Source: Pseudaminobacter salicylatoxidans | Lineage (GTDB): Bacteria; Pseudomonadota; Alphaproteobacteria; Rhizobiales; Rhizobiaceae | Reading direction: 5' to 3' | Length of the DNA: 64,000 bases | Assembly (NCBI RefSeq): GCF_003148475.1 | Contig: NZ_QGGG01000012.1 | Location: forward strand, 62,001-126,000 | In this document: one piece after another, positions 4,055 to 57,390 of the stretch | Layout: every line of letters starts with the position of its first letter | Numbering within the stretch: the first letter of the stretch is position 1 | Notes under the pieces: generated by a model | What the model saw: the letters and a program-made list of their open reading frames with translations, nothing else | Databases searched by the model: none | Told to the model about the DNA's origin: nothing | Position numbers and translations under genes: made by a program

Positions 4055-4061
4055 ACAACCA

Positions 4062-4176
4062 TCTCCTGGGCGCGTTCCTCCTCCCATTAGCGCCCTAGAG
4101 TGTTCCCCTCTGGAGGTTTAGCCTTAATCGGCACTTCCAATCAAACTTAGCCGGGTCATTTGATCCGGCTTTTTTT
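4062..4176 (+). ncRNA. abcR: AbcR-like trans-acting small RNA (alpha-r15 family)
   Basis: The stretch folds into three hairpins. GGGCGC (4068-4073) pairs with GCGCCC (4090-4095) and exposes a loop containing CCTCCTCCC, an anti-Shine-Dalgarno sequence. A second weak stem presents TTCCCC. The 3' end is a 9-bp terminator stem (AGCCGGGTC with GATCCGGCT) followed by seven T. Loops with CUCC-type motifs, a terminator of this sequence and a place next to the lsrB/vtlR gene are traits of AbcR sRNAs, which repress ABC-transporter mRNAs with Hfq. Only one clear copy is seen, whereas several relatives carry two. Exact ends are inferred. Confidence 0.8.
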
Positions 4177-17817: not shown

Positions 17818-18141
17818 CTATGTGCCCGTGCTCGACAGTTTCATGAGCACGATGCCGGACACGATCAGGGCTCCGGCTGCAAGGCGCATCAGGGTTGCGG
17901 CCTCGCCGAGCACGACGATGCCTACGGCGAAGGCGCCGACCGCCCCGATGCCGGTCCAGATCGTGTAAGCGGTTCCGAGCGGCAGCGACTTCATCGAGAT
18001 CGACAGAAGCGCGAAGCTTGCGATCATTGTGATGATGGTGATGGCGCTCGGCACCAGCAGGGTGAAGCCATCGGACTTCTTCATGAAGAACGCCCATACG
18101 ATTTCGAGAAAACCGGCAAGTGCCAGATAAATCCAGGCCAT
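17818..18141 (-). CDS. gdx: Guanidinium exporter, small multidrug resistance family
   Basis: The 107-residue protein has four membrane segments. The first carries the essential glutamate (AGFLEIVWAFFMKKSDGF), and the KSLPLGTAYTIWTGIGAVGA segment is almost that of E. coli SugE, now called Gdx, which exchanges protons for guanidinium. The functional unit is a dual-topology dimer in the inner membrane. The gene is directly preceded by a guanidine-II riboswitch, which independently supports guanidinium as substrate. It lies 97 bases behind the atpB-like gene on the same strand. Confidence 0.93.
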   Translation of the reverse strand: MAWIYLALAGFLEIVWAFFMKKSDGFTLLVPSAITIITMIASFALLSISMKSLPLGTAYTIWTGIGAVGAFAVGIVVLGEAATLMRLAAGALIVSGIVLMKLSSTGT

Positions 18142-18149
18142 GGCGAGGC

Positions 18150-18210
18150 CCTCCTTTCAGGGCCGGGCCGTCCCGGTCGTTCGATTGCGGTTGAGAGGTC
18201 GTCCTCTCGC
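18150..18210 (-). promoter_or_regulatory. Guanidine-II (mini-ykkC) riboswitch upstream of gdx
   Basis: On the minus strand, GAGAGG-ACGA-CCTCTC (18208-18193) and CCGGG-ACGG-CCCGG (18176-18163) form two stems with ACGR loops, separated by 16 bases, then AAAGGAGGG and the gdx ATG. Two ACGR-loop hairpins just upstream of the ribosome site define this class: guanidine binding to the two loops frees the ribosome site and turns translation on. Confidence 0.88.
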
Positions 18211-18238: not shown

Positions 18239-18985
18239 TCAATGCCCCGGATGCAGGGCATCGTTGAGATACATGCAAGTCAGCATTGTGAAAATGTAAG
18301 CCTGGATGACTGACATCAACAATTCCAGGCCTGTCAGGCCGACGGTCATGGCAAGCGGCAGTATCGCGCCGGCGATACCCAGTGCGCCCAGCCCACCAAG
18401 CGAAACCACAAAGCCTGCGAACACCTTCAGCGTGATGTGACCGGCCAACATGACCGCGAACAGGCGCACCGAATGACTCACCGGCCGGGATATGTAGGAG
18501 ACGACCTCGATGGGAACGAGGATGGGGGCGAGTGCCAGCGGAACGCCGGGCGGCATGAACAGGCGCAGAAAGCCGAGCCCGTTGCGCATCAGCCCATAGA
18601 TCGTGACGGTGAGAAACACCAGCATGGCGAGCGTAAAGGTGATGGCGATGTGGCTGGTGACTGTGAAGGCGTAGGGGAACATCCCGATCAGATTGGCGAC
18701 CAGCACAAACATGAACAAAGAAAAAACCAGTGGGAAGAAGCGCATTCCTTCCTCGCCGGTATTGTCGCGCAGTGTTTTGGCTATGAGCTCGAACAGTAGT
18801 TCGGCACAGGATTGCAGCCGGCCCGGCACGATCGCCCGACGCTTCGTCGCCAACAGCAGGAAGCCAGACGCAAGCGCCACGGTGAGCACCATATAGGCCG
18901 ACGAATTGGTGAAGCTGAGGTCGAATCCGCCGATCTCGACCGGTACAATCCGGGAAATCTCGAACTGTTCGATTGGTCCGGCCAT
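18239..18985 (-). CDS. atpB: Stand-alone F0 ATP synthase subunit a (AtpB-like paralogue)
   Basis: The 248-residue protein is a full-length a subunit: N-terminal [20 protein letters not shown], the [20 protein letters not shown] segment, the arginine helix [15 protein letters not shown] and the C-terminal [20 protein letters not shown] helix. The essential arginine (E. coli Arg210) is present, as are the His and Glu that replace Glu219/His245 in alphaproteobacteria and mitochondria. The residue four after the arginine, almost always Asn (Asn214), is Val. Rhizobial atpB normally sits in atpIBEF; here no other atp gene is near, so a paralogue is inferred. A guanidine-II riboswitch precedes it. 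Confidence 0.9.
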
Positions 18986-18992
18986 AGCGCGG

Positions 18993-19053
18993 CCCTCCTT
19001 TGAGTGGCCGGGCCGTCCCGGAATCGTATGCTAGCGTGAGGGTCGTCCCTCGC
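18993..19053 (-). promoter_or_regulatory. Guanidine-II (mini-ykkC) riboswitch upstream of the atpB-like gene
   Basis: On the minus strand, GAGGG-ACGA-CCCTC (19051-19038) and CCGGG-ACGG-CCCGG (19021-19008) are separated by 16 bases and followed by AAAGGAGGG and the ATG at 18985. The second hairpin and ribosome site are the same as in the gdx element and the spacing is equal, so the two elements are probably duplicates. An a-subunit gene is, to my knowledge, not a usual target of this class. Confidence 0.87.
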
Positions 19054-19066
19054 GGGGTTCCGATTA

Positions 19067-46852: not shown

Positions 46853-46928
46853 GGGCCTGTAGCTCAATGGTTAGAGCCGGCGGCTCATAACCGCTTGGTT
46901 GGGGGTTCGAGTCCCTCCGGGCCCACCA
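46853..46928 (+). tRNA. ileX: tRNA-Ile2 with CAU anticodon (lysidine type)
   Basis: A 76-base cloverleaf: acceptor GGGCCTG/CGGGCCC, D arm TAGCTCAATGGTTAGAGC, anticodon loop CTCATAA, T arm GGGGGTTCGAGTCCCTC, encoded CCA. The anticodon stem and variable region (GGCGGCTCATAACCGC, TTGGTTG) follow the isoleucine-2 pattern and not elongator methionine, so C34 would be changed to lysidine by TilS to read AUA. Its 3' end is the prophage attachment site. Confidence 0.85.
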
Positions 46929-46985
46929 AAATTCCTTTAAAATCAATTACTTATTTTGTGGTTAGCCATGAGGTTCGCCAAAGGG

Positions 46986-48098
46986 TTAGCCACGGCGGCG
47001 ATTCACCAGTTTTGTGACCTTGTCCATACCTTCGGTGGCGAGCAGCACCTGCTCTGCCTCGCGCGAATAGAGTTCGGCGTGTTCGATATCATCGTGGCCG
47101 AGAATTTTCATGAGCTGGCGGGTTGATGCGCCGCCCTCTGCCAGCATCTTTCCAAGCGTCTTGCGAAGGCCGTGAAGCGTGTATCCCTTGTCGATCTTTG
47201 CCGCCTTCGTCCAATCGGCCATCCTTCCGGTGATCGACTTTGCCGAGAATGGTTCGCCGTATTGCGTCACCAGCACCGTCTCGCCCTTGCGCAGCGTGGC
47301 CGCTAGAACCTCTTCGAGCATAGGAGTGATGGGCACGAAGACTGCTGCCCCACCCTTTTCCTGTACGACTAAGAAGCCTTCAACCTTTCGGCTCGTCTCG
47401 CCTTGCTGGATCTGCCGCGTGCAGCGCTGATCCCATCGGAGCGTCACGACATCGCTGCGGCGATTCCCGAGCCATAAGGCAAGCGCATAGGTGAGGCGAG
47501 GCGTGGTGCCGATTGGCCATCGCTTTTCGAAAGCCTCCATGGCTTCCGGTGTCCAAGCCTTCCAGCCGATATATTCTGGCCGCCATTTCAGCTTGTAGGA
47601 TGGATCAACCTCTATCCATTCCTCATCGAGCGCGGCATAAATCATCTTCCGGATCGCAACGAGAAGGTGTTTGGCCTTGTGGGGCGTGTCGGAATGGTCC
47701 GCGATGATGTCCTTGAGATGCCGGCGGCGCATGTCCTTCACCGGCACGTCGCGCCATAGAAACGGATCGTCAGGCACGATGCGCGACAGCAAGAATTCCT
47801 CGGCTAGCTTCGAATTCTTGGTCTTGGTCGCGATGCTGTAGGCCTTCCACTCGGCAGACTGCATAACCCGATTCCATGCCGCGCCAAAGGTTTCCGGCAG
47901 CGACGCGCCCGGCATCGCCACAACGGCGGCTTTCTTCGGCGGTTCACGGCCTTCAATCGCCGCTCGATATGCTGCCTCAAAGTCTGGCTCGCCGGGAGAA
48001 CCGGGAAGGCTTCTCGTTCTCCCATTGCGACGAAATCGCCAACGAGTTTTGTCGTGGCGGTCCTGATATGACGAGGCATATGGGTAATCATCGCTCAT
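46986..48098 (-). CDS. int: Phage tyrosine-recombinase integrase
   Basis: The 370-residue protein has an N-terminal DNA-binding part, a core-binding SAM-like domain (about 85-175) and a catalytic domain with the expected Arg (NRRSDVVTLRW), Lys region, HGLRKT (His-x-x-Arg), LGHDDIEHAELY with the second His/Trp position and the nucleophilic Tyr. It would cut and rejoin attP and attB at the adjacent tRNA. The gene is transcribed toward the tRNA and is preceded by the excisionase-like gene after nine bases. Confidence 0.95.
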   Translation of the reverse strand: MSDDYPYASSYQDRHDKTRWRFRRNGRTRSLPGSPGEPDFEAAYRAAIEGREPPKKAAVVAMPGASLPETFGAAWNRVMQSAEWKAYSIATKTKNSKLAEEFLLSRIVPDDPFLWRDVPVKDMRRRHLKDIIADHSDTPHKAKHLLVAIRKMIYAALDEEWIEVDPSYKLKWRPEYIGWKAWTPEAMEAFEKRWPIGTTPRLTYALALWLGNRRSDVVTLRWDQRCTRQIQQGETSRKVEGFLVVQEKGGAAVFVPITPMLEEVLAATLRKGETVLVTQYGEPFSAKSITGRMADWTKAAKIDKGYTLHGLRKTLGKMLAEGGASTRQLMKILGHDDIEHAELYSREAEQVLLATEGMDKVTKLVNRRRG

Positions 48099-48107
48099 GC
48101 AGGCAAG

Positions 48108-48356
48108 TTATGCTGCGCGATTTCGGCGTGACAAGAGCCGGTCGAGCACATTTCCACCGTCATCAGGTAGATCAGTGAATGCCGCATCGAGAGCGATCCG
48201 GTCCCAAACCGTCCGTCCGTCCACCCGTTTCGGTTTCGGCATTCGACCATCCTTGACCATTTCGTCAAACTTGGTCGATCCCACGCCAATGTATCGGGCG
48301 GCTTCTTCCCGGCAAAGTCCGCGGGGCGCATATGCGATGTTGTCCGCCCTACTCAT
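48108..48356 (-). CDS. Excisionase/AlpA-like helix-turn-helix protein
   Basis: ATG 48356 follows GGGAGAG; the 82-residue protein contains a winged-helix of the AlpA/MerR excisionase type (LCREEAARYIGVGSTKFDEM followed by a basic GRMPKPKRVDGRTVW wing). Its place directly ahead of int on the same strand fits a recombination directionality factor or int regulator. The longer frame to 48461 is a shadow over the opposing DUF982 gene. Confidence 0.8.
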   Translation of the reverse strand: MSRADNIAYAPRGLCREEAARYIGVGSTKFDEMVKDGRMPKPKRVDGRTVWDRIALDAAFTDLPDDGGNVLDRLLSRRNRAA

Positions 48357-48399
48357 TCTGCTCTCCCGGAACTTCCTCGACCCATCCGCATTGACGGCG

Positions 48400-48639
48400 A
48401 TGCAAGAACGCTTCGAGCCTGTCACGATAATGCTGACCGTTGGCCAGATGCGCAACGTCACCTCCGTTATCGAGGTCGGCGAGGCGCTGCTTGACGCCAG
48501 ATGGCCGGATAAGAAAAGCCAGGTCTACAAGGATGCGGTTTCGGCCTGCGTGGCGTGGAGCGAAGATCTTGCGACGCTTGAGCAGGTCCGTGAAGCCTTT
48601 CGGGATGCTGCCGCCTTGGCCGATGTGCTGATCAGGTAG
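48400..48639 (+). CDS. DUF982-domain protein
   Basis: ATG 48400 gives 79 residues covering one DUF982 domain (EVGEALLDARWPDKKSQVYK, then ACVAWSEDLATLEQVREAF). The family is almost confined to Hyphomicrobiales and has no known function. The gene is the only plus-strand one in the left arm of the prophage; its ribosome site is weak, so the start is uncertain. Confidence 0.65.
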   Translation: MQERFEPVTIMLTVGQMRNVTSVIEVGEALLDARWPDKKSQVYKDAVSACVAWSEDLATLEQVREAFRDAAALADVLIR

Positions 48640-48841
48640 CATCGTCGGCCTCCAAGGTTGCGCGGCCGGCATTCCAACGGCAAGCAAGCTCGATTGCGAT
48701 AAGTTCGTCTTCGCCGCTATTGCCAAAGGAAACGGATCGCCCGCCAATTGTCAGTATGATCTGGCCACCATACGAATATCCGTCGCCATAGAACCATGGC
48801 AAGCGGCTCACAATTGCCTCTGACTCCGTCAGCTTAGTCAT
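48632..48841 (-). CDS. Small phage protein, unknown function
   Basis: A 69-residue protein (MTKLTESEAIVSRLPWFYGD at the start) with a beta-rich centre (GGQIILTIGGRSVSFGNSGE) and a helical C-terminus ending in EADDAT. It overlaps its upstream neighbour by eight bases, consistent with one long early operon. No family is recognised. Confidence 0.6.
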   Translation of the reverse strand: MTKLTESEAIVSRLPWFYGDGYSYGGQIILTIGGRSVSFGNSGEDELIAIELACRWNAGRATLEADDAT

Positions 48842-49184
48842 CGCGCGCTCCTTCTGCTTCGAGTGAGCGGAGAAGGGCGAGGAGGAGGGCGATTGCTGGC
48901 GTTGCGCCTATCGCCTCCACCACATAGTCAGTGTCTGGCTGATACAACTGCATGTATCCGTCTTCGGCGCGGCCCCAGCCCCACCCCGGCCTCACCCGCC
49001 CCACCAGCGCAACGGCTGCGTCGAGGGAGGCGGTGTAGGCCGGGACATCCCATTCGTCGCGGATGCTGATTTCCAGATTGCGCAGCACTTCGTTCGGCCA
49101 ACAAACCAAGTGGTCGATGATGCGGTCAACCTCCCGATCCGGCGCTGTCAGTTTCTCCAGTCTCGCAATAAGGTCAGCGGTCAT
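48834..49184 (-). CDS. Phage protein of unknown function
   Basis: ATG 49184 follows AAGGAG and gives 116 residues (MTADLIARLEKLTAPDREVD). Short proteins with this N-terminus, followed by a Trp-rich centre and a hydrophobic helix (GATPAIALLLALLRSLEAEG), are common in rhizobial prophages and often contain the phrase TPALALLLALLKA. No function is known. Confidence 0.7.
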   Translation of the reverse strand: MTADLIARLEKLTAPDREVDRIIDHLVCWPNEVLRNLEISIRDEWDVPAYTASLDAAVALVGRVRPGWGWGRAEDGYMQLYQPDTDYVVEAIGATPAIALLLALLRSLEAEGARDD

Positions 49185-49392
49185 GGTTGGCTCCTTCGAG
49201 GTAGTGAAGTTCCCAAGTCGGATGAAATGGCAGCGGGTGCGTGTATTCCATGCCGTCCAAGCGGATGTAGAGCCGACCATCGCGGGCGCTCATGATGGTG
49301 CCGTACTCAGGCGTCTTGCCGCCTGAGTAGATGACGCGACCGCCGCGCTTGGCTGGCACGCCATATCTTTTGCGAACCCAATCCATCGACAT
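49174..49392 (-). CDS. Small phage protein, unknown function
   Basis: A 72-residue basic protein (MSMDWVRKRYGVPAKRGGRV). The centre looks like a small SH3-like beta barrel (GTIMSARDGRLYIRLDG). It starts at an ATG that shares a base with the TGA of the gene before it (TGATG), so translation is coupled. Confidence 0.6.
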   Translation of the reverse strand: MSMDWVRKRYGVPAKRGGRVIYSGGKTPEYGTIMSARDGRLYIRLDGMEYTHPLPFHPTWELHYLEGANHDR

Positions 49393-49781
49393 CACGCGCC
49401 TCCCGGACGGGCAGAGAGCAAATCGTCAGGGGCAAAGCCGTCTGTCTGGCCGTATCCCTTTTCGATATCATCCTTGCTGGCGATCATGATGTTCCAGCCG
49501 CGGCGCGCAACCATACGGTGCTCCCACGTAATCCCGGTCACGTAGAAAACAGCTTCTGGATCGTCCTCTGGGTACGGACTGGTCAAGCGCACCGGCTGCC
49601 CGACGCTGAACGGACATTCATGCGTTGGAACAGGGCTCGCCTCCACCTCTCCAGTGGGAACGATGCTGAAGCCGGCGGCTGCGAGGGAGGTGATTACGGC
49701 GTCGGCAAAGATATTCTCAGTTACGGTCGGTTCCTGGTCTCGCGGTGCAAGCGCGCGCGCTATCGCGTCTCTGGCTGTCAT
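49392..49781 (-). CDS. Phage protein of unknown function
   Basis: A 129-residue protein with an N-terminal helical segment (MTARDAIARALAPRDQEPT, ADAVITSLAAAGFSIVP) and a C-terminal beta-rich part (FSVGQPVRLTSPYPEDD, VFYVTGITWEHRM). The second half resembles KOW/SH3-type small domains in other phage early proteins. The end overlaps the next gene. Confidence 0.6.
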   Translation of the reverse strand: MTARDAIARALAPRDQEPTVTENIFADAVITSLAAAGFSIVPTGEVEASPVPTHECPFSVGQPVRLTSPYPEDDPEAVFYVTGITWEHRMVARRGWNIMIASKDDIEKGYGQTDGFAPDDLLSARPGGA

Positions 49782-50101
49782 GGCTGCTCCTTCGCGACGA
49801 GGGCGGCGCGAAGGCCGTCAAAGTCTACGTCTTCGATTAGATCGACAACAGCGTCGTACCCGCTCGCTTCAATCATGTCCGTGAGCGCGTCGAATGCGTC
49901 GTCGTCGTCGGTGAACCCTCCATGCTTCGCAATTTCCCACGCTCGTGCGAAATTCGTGGTGTCGTCATCGATGCCAAGAGTTTTGATCAACTCACGCGCG
50001 CAGGAGCCGTAAGCTGCGGCCTCCGATGAACTGCCGCCCGACGAACCCCACTCCCATCGAGCGGCCAGCGCGGCCGCTGCTAAGCGTTCACGCTTGTTCA
50101 T
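49778..50101 (-). CDS. Acidic phage protein of unknown function
   Basis: A 107-residue protein starting MNKRERLAAAALAARWEWGS. The C-terminal two thirds are acidic and helical (GFTDDDDAFDALTDMIEASG, VVDLIEDVDFDGLRAAL). High acidity in a small early protein can indicate a DNA mimic, but nothing in the sequence proves this. It overlaps the following gene by four bases. Confidence 0.6.
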   Translation of the reverse strand: MNKRERLAAAALAARWEWGSSGGSSSEAAAYGSCARELIKTLGIDDDTTNFARAWEIAKHGGFTDDDDAFDALTDMIEASGYDAVVDLIEDVDFDGLRAALVAKEQP

Positions 50102-50389
50102 CTACTCGCCCTCCTGCCCCTTGAACGCTCCCCAGCCAGTAACATCGACCCAATCGACCTTTCGACCATCTGTCGCGGCTATCGGTACGCGATCATCAAT
50201 CGGCTCGACATTTCCGTTGAATTCGCCATCTTCTGTCACAAGAAACTGCGGTGCGGACTCCTTGCGGGCCTCCCATGCAGCAATCAGTTCATCAAGCGCC
50301 TGCCTTGATACACCGACTTCGCAGCCGTCCATGTCAAGCTGACGCTGGTTGTTCTTGAGGGCTTCCAGCGCCTTCGGGTCGAGGGTCAT
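50102..50389 (-). CDS. Small phage protein, unknown function
   Basis: A 95-residue protein (MTLDPKALEALKNNQRQLDM). The pattern DGCEVGVSRQALDELIAAWE is typical of short early proteins that sit beside HNH or recombination genes in rhizobial phages. It ends right before the next gene's start and its start overlaps the HNH gene stop. Confidence 0.62.
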   Translation of the reverse strand: MTLDPKALEALKNNQRQLDMDGCEVGVSRQALDELIAAWEARKESAPQFLVTEDGEFNGNVEPIDDRVPIAATDGRKVDWVDVTGWGAFKGQEGE

Positions 50390-50793
50390 TGTGCTATCTC
50401 CTTGAACATGGCGCGGGGTTCGAGAGCCTTGAAGGCGCTCTTGTCGATGGCGGTCTGTTTCGGAAGGGCTTTCGGCGGCGATGGGATGCGGCCCTTGGGG
50501 CGGATCGCGCCCGTGTGCTTGCCGCGCACCTTGGCAACCTTGGCCTTTTCGGCCACATCAGCGGCCGTCTTTTCGGCATGACAGGCGACATGAACCGGCT
50601 TGAGGTTCTTTTCCCGATTTTCGCCGCCGTTGATGAGCGCGGTGACGTGATCCAGCGCCCATTTTTTGCCGATGATGGGCTGGCGGCAGATATGGCACTT
50701 GCCGTCCTCACGGTCGAAGACGCGTTGCCGGACACGGGGCGGTGCGCGCTGGTCGTCGTTGTCGCCGATCCATTCTTTGCGGGTGCGGGCCAT
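50386..50793 (-). CDS. HNH endonuclease
   Basis: The 135-residue protein has a zinc-ribbon HNH fold: CHICRQPI, then LDHVTALINGGENREKNLKP and the second zinc pair in CHAEKT. The His of LDHV and the Asn of the NL motif are the catalytic positions. The tail is basic and Pro/Lys-rich. In an early operon it may cut DNA during recombination or packaging-linked steps; specificity is unknown. Confidence 0.9.
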   Translation of the reverse strand: MARTRKEWIGDNDDQRAPPRVRQRVFDREDGKCHICRQPIIGKKWALDHVTALINGGENREKNLKPVHVACHAEKTAADVAEKAKVAKVRGKHTGAIRPKGRIPSPPKALPKQTAIDKSAFKALEPRAMFKEIAQ

Positions 50794-51262
50794 CTACGCA
50801 CCGCCTTTCGGCGCCGGCAGGAGCGGCTGCAAAGGCTCGCCAGCGTAGGCGGCTGCGATCCGGGGCAGAACATGCTCGGAAACGCTGTGGCCGTCAGGCA
50901 TCTGGATATGGGCGAGGAAAGCGTCCTCGAATGTCTCGATGCCGCTATCGATGCTTTCCAGCTTCGCCTTGATGCAGAGATACAGTGCCCGCCAGCGGGA
51001 CCGGCAAGCCTGTTCCCATGCAGCCATCGCAGAATCGACCGTACGGGTCTTGCCGCGGGCCGTCATGATGAACCGCTTATCCATCTGGCTCGGCAGCGGC
51101 AGGTGAAAGACAATGCGACGGCCCCCCCATCTCGAAAACAAGGATGGCGCGCGTCTGCTCCTCGAACACGCCGAAGCCGGCGGCCTTGTGCTTCCGAAGC
51201 AGGCCGTCGATCTCGCCCTTGGTCTTGGAGACGGCGACGGAAGTAGTTGCCGCATAGGCCAT
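50794..51262 (-). pseudogene. Conserved phage early protein split by a one-base frameshift
   Basis: Two frames together make one protein. Frame 1 starts MAYAATTSVAVSKTKGEIDG and reaches VFEMGG; frame 2 continues as RRIVFHLPLPSQMDKRF to the C-terminus PLLPAPKGGA. The switch falls in a run of seven G (51122-51128 on the opposite strand); six G would restore a single frame of about 155 residues. Whole proteins of this type occur next to recT in related prophages as I recall. Sequencing error, real mutation and slippage are all possible. Confidence 0.78.
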
Positions 51263-52524
51263 CACGCCACCCCCATCCATTTCCGCGCCTGATCCATGAG
51301 GAAAGGCATAGCCTGATCCCGGCCGGCCGGATTTTCGATCAGTCGGGCGCATGCCTTGTAGGCGTTCTGGACGAACTCCTTGTCATCCGGCAGTTCGGAC
51401 AGCCATGCCATCCGGGCCTTGTCCAGACGGTCGGCACGCTCGGCATCAGCTTCGTGGGTTGCCGCGTCGAACATGGAGGTTACGCATTCCTCGAGCAGGA
51501 ACAGCTTTTTCTTCTGTTCGTCGGATAGCTCGGAGGAAGGCGCGGCCTGTTCCGTGGTTACCTGGCCGGGGTTGTCGCCTTCTTCCTTAGTGCCCGCTTC
51601 ATCAGCAGGCGAAGTTTCGGCAGCGGGATCGCCTACGCTGGACATGGTGGCTGTCCCGCTGCCGTCGTCGGTGGAGGGAGCCGACGATTGGGAATTGTCT
51701 TCGGTTTGGGTGCTGGCGGGCTCGCCGTTGGGCGTTTCTCCGTCGGTGTGAGCAAACCCTTCGTGGTACTCGATCGCGTTCTGTGGCCGCCCTGCGGTCA
51801 AGCGGTCGCGTAATGACGGTTGCGGATCAGGTGCGCGGCTCAAATCATAGAGCTCGTTGTCGCGCTGCATCAGGTCGTGGATTTCCGCTGACAGAGGCAG
51901 GCGCTTGGCCAGACGGCGAATTGCCGACTTCTTGGCCATTTCCTCCCACCACTGGACCCACGGCCCCTTATCCTTCGACCGGGAGACGCTTCTGATCTTG
52001 TCGATATCGCGCGGCGTCAGCGTTTCGACATAGACTGATCCGTCCTTCGTCTTCGCCAGCGCGAATACCTGCCGGATCGTGTCATAGTCGGGATGCTCGG
52101 CCTGCTCATAGGCGACATGCTCGCCGTCGTCATCGACCCAGGCACGGAAGGTATCGCCACCATAGACCACCTTAGCCGTGATCATGGCGATCTCGCCGGA
52201 CTGGTGCATCTTCTTGATGATGCCGCCGATCATCGGCATCCACTGGACGACATTGCCGAAGCAGACGAATGCGCCCTCGCGCTTGTCGGGCAGCAATCCA
52301 TCCTGAGCAGCGCGCATTGAGGCTTCCAGAAGCGACTTGCGGTCGGCTCGCATCAATTGCGGATCACCGAGAACGGCCGTCAGCACAATCCGCTGAAAGC
52401 GCTCGGGCTTGATGTGCTCGGGCAGGGCGGCAATGAACTGGTCGCCCATGCGGGTGAGCTCGTCGCGGAATTGCTGCTGCGGAGAGACGGCGCGTCCCTC
52501 GCTGATAGGGGCGATCTGGTTCAT
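51262..52524 (-). CDS. recT: RecT-family single-strand annealing protein
   Basis: The 420-residue protein carries the RecT core in the first 230 residues (LTAVLGDPQLMRADRKSLLE, AAQDGLLPDKREGAFVCFG, WVQWWEEMAKKSAIRRLAKR) and an acidic, Ser/Thr/Glu-rich linker after 260 with a helical tail. It anneals complementary single strands for phage recombination, with the exonuclease encoded upstream. The start overlaps the exonuclease gene by four bases, and its stop overlaps the next start (TGATG). Confidence 0.92.
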   Translation of the reverse strand: MNQIAPISEGRAVSPQQQFRDELTRMGDQFIAALPEHIKPERFQRIVLTAVLGDPQLMRADRKSLLEASMRAAQDGLLPDKREGAFVCFGNVVQWMPMIGGIIKKMHQSGEIAMITAKVVYGGDTFRAWVDDDGEHVAYEQAEHPDYDTIRQVFALAKTKDGSVYVETLTPRDIDKIRSVSRSKDKGPWVQWWEEMAKKSAIRRLAKRLPLSAEIHDLMQRDNELYDLSRAPDPQPSLRDRLTAGRPQNAIEYHEGFAHTDGETPNGEPASTQTEDNSQSSAPSTDDGSGTATMSSVGDPAAETSPADEAGTKEEGDNPGQVTTEQAAPSSELSDEQKKKLFLLEECVTSMFDAATHEADAERADRLDKARMAWLSELPDDKEFVQNAYKACARLIENPAGRDQAMPFLMDQARKWMGVA

Positions 52525-53522
52525 GCTGCCTCGCGATCTTGCTGGTCAAGGAAGGTGTCGAGCCGTTCGGCCGACCAAGTTTTCATGTGAATGGGGCGCT
52601 CCCCGCCGTCGAAGGGACGGGCGCCGGGCCATTCGTTCTTGTCGAGGCATTGCCGGATCGTGTTCAGACACCAGCGGATGGCCCGCTCGCCGCGGTCGAT
52701 TGCGAAGCTGGACATCTCGACGTGAGCCGTGTCGGGCACATCGTCGTTGAGGACATAGACGAGAACGAACGTTTCGAATGGAATGCCGAGTTCGCGGCAG
52801 ACCATGCGGATCATGGCGGCCTGCAGATAATAGCCGGCGTCGAAAATCTGCCGCTCGAGAAAGTCCTCATCGAACTTGCCGGCGGTTTTCAGGTCCGCAA
52901 ACACGCCATCGGCGTTCGGCATGGCGTCGGGGCGGACCTTAAGCCAGATCCCGGTTTCCCGATCCTTCCAGCAGATCGTGCGCTCGACACGGCCGTTGAG
53001 GACACCGAGCTTGACCATTTCATTTGTGCTGGCGTCGGCATGGATTCGCCGGATGCGCTCGATCTGGTCAGGGGTGACGACGGTCTTTCCGGCCTTGCGG
53101 ACGGCATCGCGCCACTCCTGGGCGGCCTTGGTCCGGTAGTCAGGATACTCTTTCGGCCGGAGGGCAAAGCCATCCTCGAAAATCTCGTCGCCAAGCAGGA
53201 GGCAGTGAGCTGCCTTGCCGAAATCCAGCGCCTCGGAAGGCTCCTGCTCGATATGGTTCGGGTTCCATGCCCATCGCCCCCAAAACGCTTTGGGCGAGCC
53301 GCCATGAGCGGGCAGCATCCATTTCAGGATGGACTTAGAAACGGACGGGGCGTCGAACAGGTCGGGCTTGCGGTGGTAGTCCTCGAGAGTGATCCCGGAA
53401 TAGACGCCGCGCGTGGTGATCGGATTGCCGTCCCACTTCCTCTCGATGTTGGCCATCACGCGGTCGATCGGTGCAGATACGTGCTCCATCGCGTCTTGGT
53501 CGATATCAACGTGCCGGTTCAT
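52521..53522 (-). CDS. RecE-like PD-(D/E)XK exonuclease
   Basis: The 333-residue protein has the cas4/RecE-type nuclease core: an N-terminal SVSKSILKWMLPAHGGSP, the DFGKAAHCLLLG helix, and the catalytic strand pair KVRPDAMPNADGVFADLKTA (Asp, then Asp-x-Lys). It should resect double-stranded ends so that RecT can bind the exposed strand. Placement with recT makes a RecET-type pair. Confidence 0.9.
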   Translation of the reverse strand: MNRHVDIDQDAMEHVSAPIDRVMANIERKWDGNPITTRGVYSGITLEDYHRKPDLFDAPSVSKSILKWMLPAHGGSPKAFWGRWAWNPNHIEQEPSEALDFGKAAHCLLLGDEIFEDGFALRPKEYPDYRTKAAQEWRDAVRKAGKTVVTPDQIERIRRIHADASTNEMVKLGVLNGRVERTICWKDRETGIWLKVRPDAMPNADGVFADLKTAGKFDEDFLERQIFDAGYYLQAAMIRMVCRELGIPFETFVLVYVLNDDVPDTAHVEMSSFAIDRGERAIRWCLNTIRQCLDKNEWPGARPFDGGERPIHMKTWSAERLDTFLDQQDREAA

Positions 53523-53704
53523 GCTGCTTCTCCCATGCGAAAGGCTTCGAAGACACGCAGGCAGGCTTTGGCCTCCGCGTAGTGCTGGTCACGGTTTTGC
53601 TGGGGCATCGTTTCGAAGCGGCGTCGGGCCTTGTCCGGGTCGCGCTCACGGCTGAACTCCCGGAAAATGGCGAAGGCCGCTTCGTGGATCGGGTCGCCGT
53701 TCAT
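53519..53704 (-). CDS. Small phage protein, unknown function
   Basis: A 61-residue, mostly helical and charged protein (MNGDPIHEAAFAIFREFSRE). The start at 53704 overlaps the stop of the small membrane protein gene (TGAATG arrangement), and its end overlaps the exonuclease gene. The longer frame to 54019 is a shadow of the PAPS-reductase-like gene. Confidence 0.6.
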   Translation of the reverse strand: MNGDPIHEAAFAIFREFSRERDPDKARRRFETMPQQNRDQHYAEAKACLRVFEAFRMGEAA

Positions 53705-53838
53705 TGCGCAAAAACCCCAATCCAAAGGCCGGCACCGATCAGAAAGACCGTGATCGAAATGCCAGCGATGATGTCGGTGATGGTGCCGGCGAACGTGGCC
53801 GGCTCGTCTGGTGAAGGAGTGCGGAGGAGGCGGGACAT
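53701..53838 (-). CDS. Small membrane protein
   Basis: A 45-residue protein (MSRLLRTPSPDEPATFAGTI) with one hydrophobic segment of about 20 residues (IIAGISITVFLIGAGLWIGV) at its C-terminal half. It is too short for most gene finders but is framed by overlaps on both sides, which supports reality. A single-span early phage protein could act in superinfection exclusion; this is a guess. Confidence 0.55.
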   Translation of the reverse strand: MSRLLRTPSPDEPATFAGTITDIIAGISITVFLIGAGLWIGVFAQ

Positions 53839-54635
53839 CACGCGGCCCTCGCCATGCAGTCCTTGCACATGGGCGCAAAGAGTTCGGATTGACGGCTGTC
53901 GCGGCGAGGGAAGGTATCGCCCCAGCCGAAGCCGTGAAGACGCTTGGCCTCTGCCTCCAGTTCGGAAAGCCACTTGCCCCACTCTGGATAGAGCGCAGCA
54001 GCTTCGGCCCGTTCGCCACTCGTCTGCATCGTGCCGCACATGCACTCGCCGGAGCGGCAAAGCTGGACAGATACCGGGTTGATCGGGGTGCGACGGCTTT
54101 CGAGATAGGCGTCCCGGCTGTCCTGGTCCCAATCGTAGATCAGGCTGAGCCATATGTTGTTCGGTGCCGCCGGATCGCTCCGCCAGACCTGCAGGTTCTT
54201 CTTGCGATTTTCGCTTTCGTCCTTGCGGGCGCCATTGATGAGCAGGATGCGAACATCGCGCCGACGCTGGCGAATGAACTTCGACACCGCCTTGCGGAAA
54301 GGCGTGGCTTTCAGGACGCGATACGCAAAACCATGCGCCCCGATGCCTTTGCCGAAGAAGCCCTTGCGGAGAACGTAATCCTCATAGGCCGTGCCAGCGT
54401 CGGCCTCGACGTAATCACCGAGCTTGCCATAGGTGTCGCGGACGAACTCAGTCGTCTGAGGGATGCCGCAGCGGGTGTTCCCGTGCATCACCATGTCGAT
54501 CTTGACGCCCAGTTCGCGGGCGACCTGATCGGACGCGGCGCTGTCCTTGCCGCCAGAAACCATCGAGACGATGTGCGTCGGGCTGAACTGGTCGATTGCC
54601 TGCCGCAGGATCGCGGCGCTCTTGTCGATGAGCAT
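53838..54635 (-). CDS. Phosphoadenosine-phosphosulfate-reductase-like protein
   Basis: The 265-residue protein has the ATP-pyrophosphatase P-loop SGGKDS (about residue 27) of the PAPS reductase/DndC superfamily, and a C-terminal cysteine set (CRSGECMCGT, MCKDCMA) suitable for an iron-sulfur or zinc site. Free-standing members occur in phages; they have been linked to nucleobase or DNA backbone modification in DndC relatives, but no dnd partner is visible. It lies in the recombination operon, overlapping both neighbours. Confidence 0.85.
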   Translation of the reverse strand: MLIDKSAAILRQAIDQFSPTHIVSMVSGGKDSAASDQVARELGVKIDMVMHGNTRCGIPQTTEFVRDTYGKLGDYVEADAGTAYEDYVLRKGFFGKGIGAHGFAYRVLKATPFRKAVSKFIRQRRRDVRILLINGARKDESENRKKNLQVWRSDPAAPNNIWLSLIYDWDQDSRDAYLESRRTPINPVSVQLCRSGECMCGTMQTSGERAEAAALYPEWGKWLSELEAEAKRLHGFGWGDTFPRRDSRQSELFAPMCKDCMARAA

Positions 54636-54850
54636 CACGCCGTCTCCTTAGTCTGGTTGCCTTCGACTACGAGTGAAGCAAGGAACTGGTCGGCTTCCGC
54701 CGCGACGTTCCGTGCGCGCTCGACGCGTTCCCACTGGCTCTTGCCAAGGCCGGACTGATACCGGACGGCTTCCAGCAATCGGGCGAGGTCGGTGATCGAA
54801 CGGATGGCCGCACAAAGGTGGCTGTCCATTTTGGAGAGACGGTCCGACAT
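54635..54850 (-). CDS. Small phage protein, unknown function
   Basis: A 71-residue helical protein (MSDRLSKMDSHLCAAIRSIT) with a long predicted helix (ARNVAAEADQFLASLVVEGN). Its stop overlaps the start of the PAPS-reductase-like gene (TGATG), so it is translationally coupled. Confidence 0.6.
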   Translation of the reverse strand: MSDRLSKMDSHLCAAIRSITDLARLLEAVRYQSGLGKSQWERVERARNVAAEADQFLASLVVEGNQTKETA

Positions 54851-55074
54851 CACACTGCCTCCTGGCTCTGGCCGAGGGCGGCCTTGATGGATGCATTGAG
54901 GCGGGCGCGGGTCAGCGCGTCGGTCGCCTCAGTGTGAGTGGGATGGCTGGAAACGTGCCGGTATCCGTCATCGGACAGGCGCAGCACCTTGTGCTCGGTC
55001 GGGCGACCAACCTTGGTGTAGCTGCCGGTTCCCCAGCGCTCGAATTCGACAAGAGCGGCTTCGAGGTCGAACAT
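54850..55074 (-). CDS. Small phage protein, unknown function
   Basis: ATG 55074 follows GGGAGGT. The 74-residue protein (MFDLEAALVEFERWGTGSYT) has a helix-then-strand N-terminus and a helical C-terminus (ALTRARLNASIKAALGQSQE). It is coupled to both neighbours by overlaps. Confidence 0.62.
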   Translation of the reverse strand: MFDLEAALVEFERWGTGSYTKVGRPTEHKVLRLSDDGYRHVSSHPTHTEATDALTRARLNASIKAALGQSQEAV

Positions 55075-55370
55075 CAGAACACCTCCCGCGCCATCTGGTG
55101 GAGCCGGTCGCCACGCGAACACGCACGGTCGAAATCCGGGTATTCCGGCTCTTCCTCGACCTCATCCGCGATGAACTCGTCGGTCACGTCCCTGCAGGTG
55201 CCTTCGACGGCGTTGAACCGGACCACCGAATAATCGGTCTGGTCGCTGTTCAGGTCCTTGGCGATGCCATCGGCTTCGCGGCGGGAGTAGGCGACGAGGG
55301 CATCGATATGCTCGCCGGCGAAGATCCAGTGATCGCTGTCGGTCAGCAGTGGGGCGGTGCGGGCAGCCAT
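55074..55370 (-). CDS. Acidic phage protein of unknown function
   Basis: A 98-residue protein (MAARTAPLLTDSDHWIFAGE). The middle is mixed alpha-beta (RREADGIAKDLNSDQTDYSV) and the C-terminal third is strongly acidic (EFIADEVEEEPEYPDFD). The ATG overlaps nothing but comes two bases before the preceding stop, as in a coupled operon. Confidence 0.6.
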   Translation of the reverse strand: MAARTAPLLTDSDHWIFAGEHIDALVAYSRREADGIAKDLNSDQTDYSVVRFNAVEGTCRDVTDEFIADEVEEEPEYPDFDRACSRGDRLHQMAREVF

Positions 55371-55371
55371 C

Positions 55372-55656
55372 TCAGCGGCCCTCCGCCTTGGCAATTGCGG
55401 CGCGCCAGCTAGCCAGCGTTTCGTTGTCCTCGCCATCATGGAAGGCAACCGCCTCTTTCAGAGCGACCAGCAAATCCGGCGCGGCGGAGATCAGGCGGGC
55501 GTTGGCTTCGCCTTGGTCTGTCCTGCCGCTACCTTCGCCGCCGTATGCGACTGCTATGTTTGGATCTATCAGGTGTCCAAATCCCAGTCGGCCAGCGTAG
55601 GTCCACGGCCCCGGAGTGCGCTCCTGCTTGCTCTTTTGTTTGGTGATTGCGTTCAT
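55372..55656 (-). CDS. Conserved phage protein of unknown function
   Basis: From ATG 55656 behind GGAGGG the protein has 94 residues. The core (GEANARLISAAPDLLVALKE) is a frequent signature of small early proteins in many temperate phages (ANARLIAAAPDLLAAL type). A TPGPWTY motif precedes it. Function is unknown. Confidence 0.75.
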   Translation of the reverse strand: MNAITKQKSKQERTPGPWTYAGRLGFGHLIDPNIAVAYGGEGSGRTDQGEANARLISAAPDLLVALKEAVAFHDGEDNETLASWRAAIAKAEGR

Positions 55657-55717
55657 CTCACCCTCCAATTGTTGGAAGCATTCGGGAAACCCGCCCAGAG
55701 GCGGGAAACCGGAAGGC

Positions 55718-56284
55718 TCAGGCCGGTGCTTTCTGGAGTGGTTGGATCATGCTGCGGTCACGACGATCACTTGCTTGATCGTCGGCGCTCTTGACGTTGA
55801 AGACGTCCGAGAGAAGGCGGTTGACCGTCTCGTGCAGTTCGCCGCGAAGTTTGTCCTTGAGCGATCCGCCAAGGTTGACGACGTGTTGCTTCATCTCGCC
55901 TCGGAAGTCGGCGGCGACCAACTGTGTCATCATCCATTCGGCGCGGGTCAGTTCGGCGCCATATCCGTTTGACGGCTTCCCCTGCCTGTCGACCTTGGCG
56001 TTCCAGTAGCCGCCGATCAGCTTTTCCAGTTCGGCCCGGATCGTGGTCTTTTCGCCCTTCTGCTGGCCGAAGCTGTCGACCTTGCAATATTCGCGCTCAA
56101 GGCCATTCGAGATGGCGAGTTCGATCTCGCTGCGAATGCGCGCTTCGGCGACTTCCTTCCAGAGCTTCTCAACGCGGCCGTCAAAGGCGCGCTTGGCGCG
56201 GTCATAGAGAGTTTCATCGCCAATCAGCTTGTCGGCGACCTCCGCAATGATGGCGTCCTCAATGCGTGCTTGGTTCAGTTCCAT
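55718..56284 (-). CDS. First gene of the leftward early operon, unknown function
   Basis: ATG 56284 lies at a good distance from GGAGG. The 188-residue protein is helical and charged (MELNQARIEDAIIAEVADKL; KLWKEVAEARIRSEIELAIS; YWNAKVDRQGKPSNGYGAEL). It has no recognised domain. The operon promoter must lie in the following 280 bases, where operator-like repeats are found. Confidence 0.7.
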   Translation of the reverse strand: MELNQARIEDAIIAEVADKLIGDETLYDRAKRAFDGRVEKLWKEVAEARIRSEIELAISNGLEREYCKVDSFGQQKGEKTTIRAELEKLIGGYWNAKVDRQGKPSNGYGAELTRAEWMMTQLVAADFRGEMKQHVVNLGGSLKDKLRGELHETVNRLLSDVFNVKSADDQASDRRDRSMIQPLQKAPA

Positions 56285-56391
56285 TCCCATTCCCTCCAAT
56301 TGATCGGCAGCGTCTGCTCGAGGCCCGGAACACCGCCGGTTGACCCGGGCGGTGGTTCACATCTCGACCTCCTTGCCCGCTGTGGTTCTGT

Positions 56392-56484
56392 TCAGGTCGC
56401 AACCAGATCGGCCGGGGCTTCTTCGTGGTGGCGATGCCAGATCAGGCTGGTGCCGTCTTCGTGGCTTGCGTGCTGATAGTGCAT
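56392..56484 (-). CDS. Possible very small protein (30 residues)
   Basis: A minus-strand frame from ATG 56484 (or GTG 56493) reads MHYQHASHEDGTSLIWHRHH and ends EEAPADLVAT. The His-rich, non-random composition and lack of stops are suggestive, but there is no clear ribosome site, so this is tentative. It lies in front of the leftward operon. Confidence 0.3.
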   Translation of the reverse strand: MHYQHASHEDGTSLIWHRHHEEAPADLVAT

Positions 56485-56487
56485 CCC

Positions 56488-56527
56488 ATTCACATAATGG
56501 TCAAGCCGAAAAGTGAATGTGATGAAC
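56488..56527. promoter_or_regulatory. Repressor-operator-like repeats in the early divergent region
   Basis: ATTCACAT (56488-56495) faces GTGAATGTGATGAAC (56513-56527). The latter is the exact reverse complement of a 15-base sequence in the immunity region (61865-61879). The region lies between two divergent early operons and likely binds the XRE repressor. Confidence 0.7.
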
Positions 56528-56568
56528 ATTTATTTTGACGAGCACGGAATCGATGCCTAAAAGGGGGC

Positions 56569-57390
56569 ATGTCAAAAACAGCAAGCGACGCCCTGGAGCG
56601 TCACTATCGGGCGCGGCGCACCCGCAAGATTGTGATCGGGCGCTGTGTTCTCGCGGAAATGTCAGAGCGGCGAAGATCCGACTGGAAACCGTCTCTCGAA
56701 TTGATGCGCCTGCGCGAGATCGAAGCGATTATTTTCCACCGTCACGGTTCAATCCTTCCGGAAACGGACGATGCCGATCTCTACATTGAGGCGGCAGCTT
56801 TCGCCCAATCGGATCAAAATATGATCGACTGGTGCCGGAAATGGGCACCGTGGGCCGGCGAGGAGATCGTTGGACCAATTGTCGAGCAGGCGAAGAAGCG
56901 TAGCCGCATGATGCGAGCGGACGGGGTAGCCGGTCTGCTCAGAGTGACGATGAAGGAGCGCGATGACCTCGACCTCAAGACAATCGGCGCATGCGATATG
57001 GCGAAAGGCGACCGACTTGCGCTAGCGAAGGAGCGGAAACGGGCGCGCGATCGCAAGCGGATGCAGAAAAAGCGGTCTGGGAAAAGCCGTAAGGATCGCC
57101 AGACCTATGAGGCCGAATCTGCCGAAACATTGAAACCATGGGAGGCCGAAGGGATCAGCCGAAGAACGTGGTATCGCAGGCGTGGCACAAGTGTGTCGCG
57201 AGTAGATATATATACTATTGGCGACATACCTGTGCCAACGGCCGAAAAGTATGCGCCACCGGTCCCATCGGCCTCGGGGCAAAATACGGACGGCGCAGCC
57301 GACCGTTGCGCGGGTCTGGGGGATCATCCCCCAGCGGGGCGCCAAGGGGCGGAGCCCCATGGGAGCGGCGACAATGAGGCGGCCGCGTAA
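56569..57390 (+). CDS. Phage protein with basic and helix-turn-helix-like segments
   Basis: ATG 56569 follows AAAGGGGG. The 273-residue protein (MSKTASDALERHYRARRTRK) has a very basic centre (ALAKERKRARDRKRMQKKR), and an EGISRRTWYRRRG segment that resembles the resolvase/transposase-like recognition helix used in small rhizobial phage regulators. The tail is Pro/Gly-rich and poorly ordered. It may bind DNA; no firm family is recognised. Confidence 0.65.
   Translation: MSKTASDALERHYRARRTRKIVIGRCVLAEMSERRRSDWKPSLELMRLREIEAIIFHRHGSILPETDDADLYIEAAAFAQSDQNMIDWCRKWAPWAGEEIVGPIVEQAKKRSRMMRADGVAGLLRVTMKERDDLDLKTIGACDMAKGDRLALAKERKRARDRKRMQKKRSGKSRKDRQTYEAESAETLKPWEAEGISRRTWYRRRGTSVSRVDIYTIGDIPVPTAEKYAPPVPSASGQNTDGAADRCAGLGDHPPAGRQGAEPHGSGDNEAAA

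Follow-up and report, generated by a model that had tools for sequence, protein, structure and literature searches.

Guanidine-II riboswitches (mini-ykkC, RF01068) consist of two hairpins with ACGR loops, and their usual targets are gdx and other SMR transporter genes or genes for guanidine degradation. In the available sections of the review literature, the harm done by guanidine is ascribed to chaotropic effects, and efflux is the only specific stress response known. The element described here shares with this class the two ACGR hairpins, the covariation, the position ahead of a start codon and, in the predicted off fold, the pairing of the Shine-Dalgarno sequence with P2, but its target is the a subunit of the F0 sector of the ATP synthase. 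The Gdx exporters, whose genes stand under the same riboswitch class and are represented here by the next gene, remove guanidine, whereas an a subunit would protect a target.

The replacement of one protein by another under the control of a signal is known from several isozyme swaps, such as MetE under B12 riboswitches or the zinc-free ribosomal proteins under Zur. By analogy, the present case may share with them the production of a substitute part when the ordinary part cannot work; it would differ from them in its signal, a toxic cation, and in the part exchanged, which is the stator of a rotary motor. A likeness of another kind exists with the arginine-mimicking inhibitors of F1F0, such as bedaquiline and HM2-16F, for which a common chemistry is proposed, with a cation replacing the a-subunit arginine at the c-ring carboxylate (PMC8873251, as far as available). 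Those inhibitors are drugs, whereas in the present proposal inhibition comes from free guanidinium and is answered by a riboswitch-controlled a subunit.

No guanidine riboswitch joined with an ATP synthase subunit was found in the open literature (supplements and subscription papers lay outside the search), and the term ATP synthase is absent from the available text of PMC12186494, PMC2864571, PMC3766115, PMC5596092, PMC7736828, and PMC7266159. An earlier mention may stand unremarked in an old target list, such as the gene list in Additional file 8 of PMC2864571.

The a-subunit locus and its riboswitches

The window, that is, the whole stretch of 64,000 nucleotides of Pseudaminobacter salicylatoxidans DNA that was analysed, carries on its minus strand, in order of transcription, a guanidine-II element, an a-subunit gene (here atpB'), a second guanidine-II element, and an SMR gene (Table 1). 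In profile searches the a-subunit reading frame scores far above the cut-offs of its family models, with 218.3 bits against PF00119 (cut-off 33.9) and 370.1 bits against the NCBIfam equivalog for F0F1 ATP synthase subunit A, NF004482 (cut-off 225). As a first-pass annotation of the window had stated, the gene is an orphan outside any atp operon; its flanks are carB upstream of the locus, the SMR gene, and a lytic transglycosylase gene downstream on the opposite strand. The same annotation had named the next gene as gdx with the same element, and an SMR protein does follow behind an RF01068 match of its own. Compared with solved SMR sequences, this protein scores 100.2 bits against 8vxu and 96.0 bits against 6wk5, its two closest matches, both of which we take to be Gdx-Clo, and 50.5 bits against the best EmrE; against the SugE equivalog it reaches 119.3 bits, where the model cut-off is 126. 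The protein is a probable guanidinium exporter Gdx.

Table 1. Features of the locus, with positions counted from the first nucleotide of the window
Feature	Position	Strand	Description and basis
Paralogous F0 a subunit (AtpB-like), atpB'	18239..18985	-	full-length, 248 aa; PF00119, NF004482
Guanidine-II riboswitch of the a-subunit gene	19008..19054	-	RF01068, 40.3 bits; P1 loop ACGA, P2 loop ACGG
Shine-Dalgarno GGAGGG of the a-subunit gene	18993..18998	-	sequence; minimum-energy fold
Guanidine-II riboswitch of the SMR/gdx-like gene	18163..18210	-	RF01068, 40.9 bits
SMR transporter, probable guanidinium exporter Gdx	17818..18141	-	107 aa; PF00893, 96.5 bits

Elsewhere in the window, an alphaproteobacterial ar15 sRNA was matched at 4061-4176 (RF02345, 48.3 bits), and a tRNA gene followed by integrase-like and phage-type recombination genes, read by eye, occupies 46853-57390, which is probably an integrated prophage or element.

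The source genome (4.84 Mb, 100% complete) holds exactly two PF00119 genes, the window copy and one on contig C3. The latter lies within an atp operon that reads atpI-B-E-b'-b (by eye, with the c subunit confirmed by Pfam), so that the second atpB for which the annotation had proposed to look does exist, and the idea that the window gene is the housekeeping atpB is refuted. Both proteins are 66% identical, an identity at which the fold of the paralogue is not in doubt. The only c-subunit gene of the genome is the one in the C3 operon, and a paralogue active in F0 must therefore share the ordinary c ring. The window protein has in common with alphaproteobacterial AtpB its full length, the essential arginine, the glutamine, and the His/Glu gate pair; it differs in being encoded by an orphan gene behind a riboswitch and in the exchange of Asn for Val in the inlet, to which M224, A106, and H171 are added.

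Both riboswitch elements of the window exceed the RF01068 gathering score of 32 in a covariance-model search, and the one of the a-subunit gene ends 22 nt ahead of the start codon. The two hairpins and their loops, read by eye in the annotation together with the Shine-Dalgarno sequence behind them, are in this way borne out by the model. When the window element was aligned with 68 relatives (69 rows, 57 distinct), standard pairing was found in 93.9% of the pair cells, and changes on both sides in 8 of the 12 pairs of the stems, a number that none of 500 shuffles reached; the outermost pair of P2 is weak, being unpaired in 28 of the 57 rows. A chance match is excluded by this covariation against shuffles and by the low background of the two-hairpin pattern in the loci described below (8 matches in 977,714 bases, or 0.003 per 330 nt).

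The minimum-energy fold of the a-subunit leader (-40.8 kcal/mol, z -3.43) is predicted to keep P1 and to open P2, whose 3' strand GGCCCGGCC pairs with GGAGGGCC, the segment containing the Shine-Dalgarno sequence. The predicted fold of the SMR leader is similar, with the 3' strand of P2 again paired to the Shine-Dalgarno sequence (z -2.43), and an expression platform that hides this sequence is thus present in the predicted folds of both leaders. This is the off state expected of a guanidine-II element acting as a translational on-switch (PMC12186494, in the part available), and, judging by the folding model, the window leaders would act as such switches in response to guanidine. The genome has a third guanidine-II element, on contig C6, about 250 nt ahead of another SMR gene.

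Distribution and genetic context

The arrangement recurs in relatives, where the annotation had suggested that it be looked for, both in a family sample and in a large species collection. A search of 151 genomes of the family with the whole paralogue protein yielded 11 carriers, ten of them intact (the source genome included) and one, G098, with the gene in two pieces. The nine other intact second copies are 71-80% identical to the window protein, against at most 70% for ordinary copies. RF01068 was found upstream of the paralogue start in all 11 carriers, about 20-220 nt away; ten of these elements are over the gathering score, and that of G071 reaches 25.0 bits. The pieces in G098 lie on its contigs C6 and C42, the 3' piece being cut by an insertion at the contig end. 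In this genome the gene is apparently split by the insertion, while the SMR gene and both guanidine-II elements are still in place; the end of C42 reads identical to the Aquamicrobium aerolatum locus L064. In G089 a single ordinary a subunit is divided between two contigs, and its ends account for two partial matches.

In the species collection, a codon scan of 84,980 genomes for a 10-residue motif that includes V178 returned 99 stretches, and the counts that follow come from 80 of them: 77 loci of alphaproteobacterial type and three actinobacterial ones, the latter left out of the counts. The DNA upstream is readable in 73 of the 77 (all except L041, L064, L066, and L069), and a two-hairpin element stands within about 300 nt upstream in 69 of these 73. 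In the other four, three of Pseudochrobactrum type and one of Shinella daejeonensis, no guanidine-II element was found upstream, and their paralogues still keep both Val and Met. One contig labelled Bacillus subtilis SK6B4 (L097) carries a Pseudochrobactrum-like atpB' locus and probably belongs to a contaminated assembly.

Whole-genome searches covered 50 of the 80 loci, namely 49 alphaproteobacterial carriers and one Streptomonospora. Each of the 49 carrier genomes has two a-subunit loci, although in Brucella cytisi both are in pieces. RF01068 lies upstream of the paralogue in 46 of them (43 over gathering, three at 31.6 bits) and beside the housekeeping a subunit in none of the 49, and under strict filters the a-subunit element is the sole RF01068 match in 20. 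The exact motif is present in at least 44 of 394 family genomes, a lower bound, since the paralogue of G096 escapes the motif.

Among the matches listed for a class sample of 289 genomes, which are the best ones, none but that of the source genome exceeds 61% identity, and RF01068 is present in 28 of the 289. A general linkage of guanidine-II elements with any atpB was rejected, as no element stands near an a-subunit gene in the 22 genomes listed (the 27 class genomes with RF01068 besides the source genome, minus G222, G305, G365, G411, and G439), and the closest distance between the two, among the matches listed, is about 62 kb (G295). A total of 19 matches were obtained on plasmids. Of the three retrieved, H1 on pT1293b of Phyllobacterium is a true paralogue and H17 an ordinary copy from an atp operon; H18 belongs to an unannotated Proteus record.

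The annotation had read the a-subunit gene and gdx as one guanidine response. The pairing is present in the window, but it is not general: in 8 kb stretches, some of which end nearby, an SMR gene follows atpB' in 25 of the 77 loci (15 of these SMR genes have, by pattern, their own element), and none was seen in the other 52, four of which end inside the gene. Likewise, no SMR gene was seen in the DNA examined around the a-subunit element in 15 of the 20 genomes where this element is the only one. The a subunit therefore appears to be a guanidine target independently of gdx.

At ten of the 77 loci (L048, L071, L088, L092, L095, L108, L109, L110, L112, and L113), another element lies about 1.4-1.7 kb upstream. 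The reading frames behind it were read in six of the ten and are similar and antiporter-like, one of them split; the one tested by Pfam belongs to PF01699, presumably a ChaA-like antiporter. An antiporter behind its own guanidine-II element is a target left unnamed in the available text of the guanidine-riboswitch literature examined.

The spacing between riboswitch and gene also varies. In 18 of the 69 loci the element immediately precedes atpB', which is also the arrangement of the window; in the remaining 51 the spacing is 98-267 nt, and the simple Shine-Dalgarno mechanism of the window is therefore not transferable to them unchanged. In five Devosia loci (L048, L090, L107, L112, and L113) a membrane protein ORF of 56-59 aa with two helices lies between riboswitch and atpB', and the three of these ORFs that were searched match no Pfam family over cut-off. 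In 40 of the other 46 long-spacer loci there is an open frame that extends to the gene, where single-base shuffles give 28.9 (sd 3.1), an excess that makes a coupled leader peptide likely. This frame is short and poorly conserved, begins just after P2, and reaches or overlaps the start of atpB'; ahead of it there is often a third hairpin (ATCTC...GAGAT). In Afipia massiliensis (L052), the DNA upstream of atpB' may hold a third hairpin with an ACGG loop, placed in tandem with the guanidine-II element.

The proton path and the descent of the paralogue

For the comparison of residues, 75 paralogue rows (70 distinct) were set against 55 housekeeping copies (53 distinct), the latter number remaining after five of the 40 fetched loci and one of 21 earlier ones had been left out. 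The essential arginine R174 (R210 in Escherichia coli) and Q228 (Q252) are invariant in the 75 paralogues, and the gate pair H183/E221, which corresponds in exchanged order to E219/H245 of E. coli, is kept in all 75 and in all 55 housekeeping copies. At position 178, which corresponds to N214 of E. coli and lies in the inlet channel a single helix turn away from the essential arginine, every paralogue row has Val, whereas Asn (53) or Ser (2) stands there in the housekeeping copies. All 75 paralogues carry Met at position 224, four residues ahead of Q228, against Val (53) or Ile (2) in the housekeeping group. Two further positions tend to separate the groups: 106, with Ala in 74 of the 75 paralogues against Phe (52), Thr (2), or Gly (1), and 171, with His in all 75 against Leu (51) or His (4). 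The count for V178 is partly the result of selection, because this residue was in the search motif for 65 of the rows; the ten rows from the whole-protein search all have V178, M224, A106, and H171, the last three never selected for, and seven of these ten group as identical with motif-search rows in the tree. Arg+4 and Gln-4 should stand at a similar height on antiparallel neighbouring helices, and from this helix spacing residues 178 and 224 probably touch. The suggestion, offered as speculation in the annotation, that a paralogous a subunit could alter the proton channel gains specific support from the alignment, with Val in the inlet of all paralogues in place of Asn or Ser.

The corresponding residues of E. 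coli have been studied in detail. The inlet channel ends at aN214 and aQ252, which adjoin aR210 (PMC9447477), and the leading cD61 comes within 3.8 A of the guanidinium of aR210 (PMC8754430). In the available sections of PMC11121307, mutants with Val, Leu, Gln, or Glu at 214 retain growth on succinate but have a significantly reduced ATP-coupled proton conductance, and molecular dynamics predicts that a nonpolar residue there breaks the proton chain, a prediction that would suit a throttled enzyme as well. The growth of the N214V mutant on succinate indicates that the Val of the paralogue is compatible with a working enzyme. Asn is moreover the usual but not the obligatory residue, as glycine or hydrophobic residues occur naturally at 214 (PMC8754430, in part). 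Val is also found at this position in the three actinobacterial loci of the scan (L046, L076, and L086; two Streptomonospora and one Nocardiopsis), with the motif RLFAVM. These genes adjoin other atp genes, and no guanidine-II match was found in the 8 kb around them, so that Val alone is no marker of a guanidine function.

In a tree of the 75 paralogue and 55 housekeeping rows, a single clade (90/98) unites 54 of the 55 housekeeping copies and includes none of the paralogue rows. The exception is the long-branched housekeeping copy of Reyranella, which falls outside the main clade and because of which the paralogue label needs two changes on the tree. The topology is compatible with one old paralogue family, whose monophyly is unproven, and it rejects recent independent duplications. 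The paralogue of Reyranella falls together with the Aquibium ones (99/80) despite the very distant housekeeping copy of its genome, which suggests horizontal transfer. The paralogues are under purifying selection, with a median dN/dS of 0.12 (range 0.01-0.31) over 60 pairs, and a decaying pseudogene is rejected by this constraint.

Proposed function and alternatives

From the features computed here, namely the gene and its paralogy, the riboswitch, the conservation, the residue swap, and the purifying selection, we infer with evenly balanced confidence that atpB' encodes a guanidine-inducible alternative a subunit, which would replace the housekeeping stator subunit and whose altered inlet would tolerate guanidinium. 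In the absence of guanidine, the 3' strand of P2 would mask the Shine-Dalgarno sequence and the paralogue would hardly be translated. As guanidinium rises, it would bind the ACGR loops, P1 and P2 would kiss, and the Shine-Dalgarno sequence would be released for translation of the paralogue, accompanied in this genome by that of the exporter Gdx. The subunit so produced would then join the only c ring of the cell, its b subunits, and F1 and displace its housekeeping counterpart. Guanidinium is the functional group in the side chain of the essential arginine, and in the housekeeping enzyme it may penetrate the water-filled inlet half-channel, lodge among a-Asn214, a-Gln252, and the c-ring carboxylate, and bring the rotor to a halt. 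The change from Asn to Val, together with the neighbouring change from Val to Met, would lay an apolar and tight layer at the arginine, past which protons would pass more slowly and from which guanidinium would be excluded. It is proposed that the paralogue is made only on demand because this tolerance costs proton flow.

The chemistry of such a block has some precedent. Arginine mimics, including an acylguanidine, are F1F0 inhibitors thought to act where the a-subunit arginine and the c-ring carboxylate meet, and interest in the acylguanidine HM2-16F as such an inhibitor arose from the likeness of its guanidine group to that arginine, a likeness shared by the amine of bedaquiline (PMC8873251, in the sections available). 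The same authors note that the a-c interface admits only certain guanidine-like chemotypes, which counts against a block by free guanidinium. Two further points weigh on that side: no experiment in which free guanidine inhibits a bacterial F0 was found in the available text of the literature examined, and the guanide drugs are there placed mainly at complex I. Against the reading as a whole also count the Val of the three actinobacterial a subunits, the four paralogues with no element found upstream, the 51 loci with long spacers, and the predicted break of the proton chain by a nonpolar residue at 214. Older work by Hollunger (1955) and Pressman (1963) is said, by its titles, to concern guanidines and mitochondrial energy transfer. 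The broader claim that F0 is a main physiological target of guanidine, and that an alphaproteobacterial lineage exchanges its a subunit by riboswitch for one with a guanidinium-excluding inlet, is held more tentatively, a little short of an even balance.

The main rival of target protection, with which it shares the prediction of assembly into F0, is rather unlikely. It holds that a slow or pKa-shifted a subunit limits or retunes the proton flow of F0 during guanidinium export, since antiport by Gdx and its relatives uses up protons and brings them into the cytoplasm; guanidinium need not touch F0. The lowered proton conductance of N214V and N214L in E. coli and the shifted channel pKas of N214L agree with this (PMC11121307 and PMC8754430, both in part), as do guanidine-II partners that look proton-coupled, with SMR genes at 25 and an upstream cation antiporter, by pattern, at 10 of the 77 loci. 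Against it stand the 20 of 49 genomes in which the a-subunit element is the sole match, 15 of them with no SMR gene seen nearby, and the invariance of the catalytic residues, which leaves V178 as the one mark of a weak enzyme. A change of cation selectivity, by which the altered inlet would use or refuse another cation accompanying guanidine stress, is improbable: antiporters of the Na/Ca exchanger type do share guanidine control in some genomes, but the ion site lies in the c ring, which is the ordinary one encoded by a single gene, and the proton-path residues are retained in the paralogue.

Slightly less probable still is a role outside the ATP synthase, in which the protein would, for example, stand free in the membrane or sequester c rings or b subunits as a decoy; the orphan position of the gene, with carB and the SMR and lytic transglycosylase genes as neighbours, would suit such a role. 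The rotor-facing arginine and glutamine and the gate residues are, however, kept in 75 of 75 rows under constraint, and a protein without a c ring would have no need of them. It is very improbable that atpB' is a mere passenger in the path of a riboswitch serving gdx or a leader peptide; the excess of short frames that reach the gene in the long-spacer loci would fit this, but the element stands directly before atpB' in the window and in 18 of 69 loci, gdx has its own element in the window, and no SMR gene was seen after atpB' in most loci. A housekeeping atpB, or a decaying copy of it, has next to no probability: the family name, F0F1 ATP synthase subunit A, is all that speaks for it, against the second copy in the atp operon, the position of the paralogues outside the housekeeping clade, and their constrained coding sequences.

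Guanidine-sensing RNAs are widespread, yet the damage that guanidine does inside the cell is unsettled, and the conserved a subunit behind such an RNA, with its specific substitution in the channel, points to the proton path of the ATP synthase. With it, the guanidine regulon would gain a component of this enzyme. The paralogue would also offer a natural, evolved probe of the inlet half-channel, in which the change from Asn to Val is kept together with that from Val to Met in all 75 rows. If target protection is true, the locus would be a case in which a riboswitch drives the exchange of a subunit in a rotary ATPase, and the guanidine response would have a target-protection arm. That many soil and plant-associated bacteria hold a second a subunit behind a guanidine switch suggests that guanidine attacks the energy motor of the cell and that these bacteria exchange the affected part for a tolerant one.
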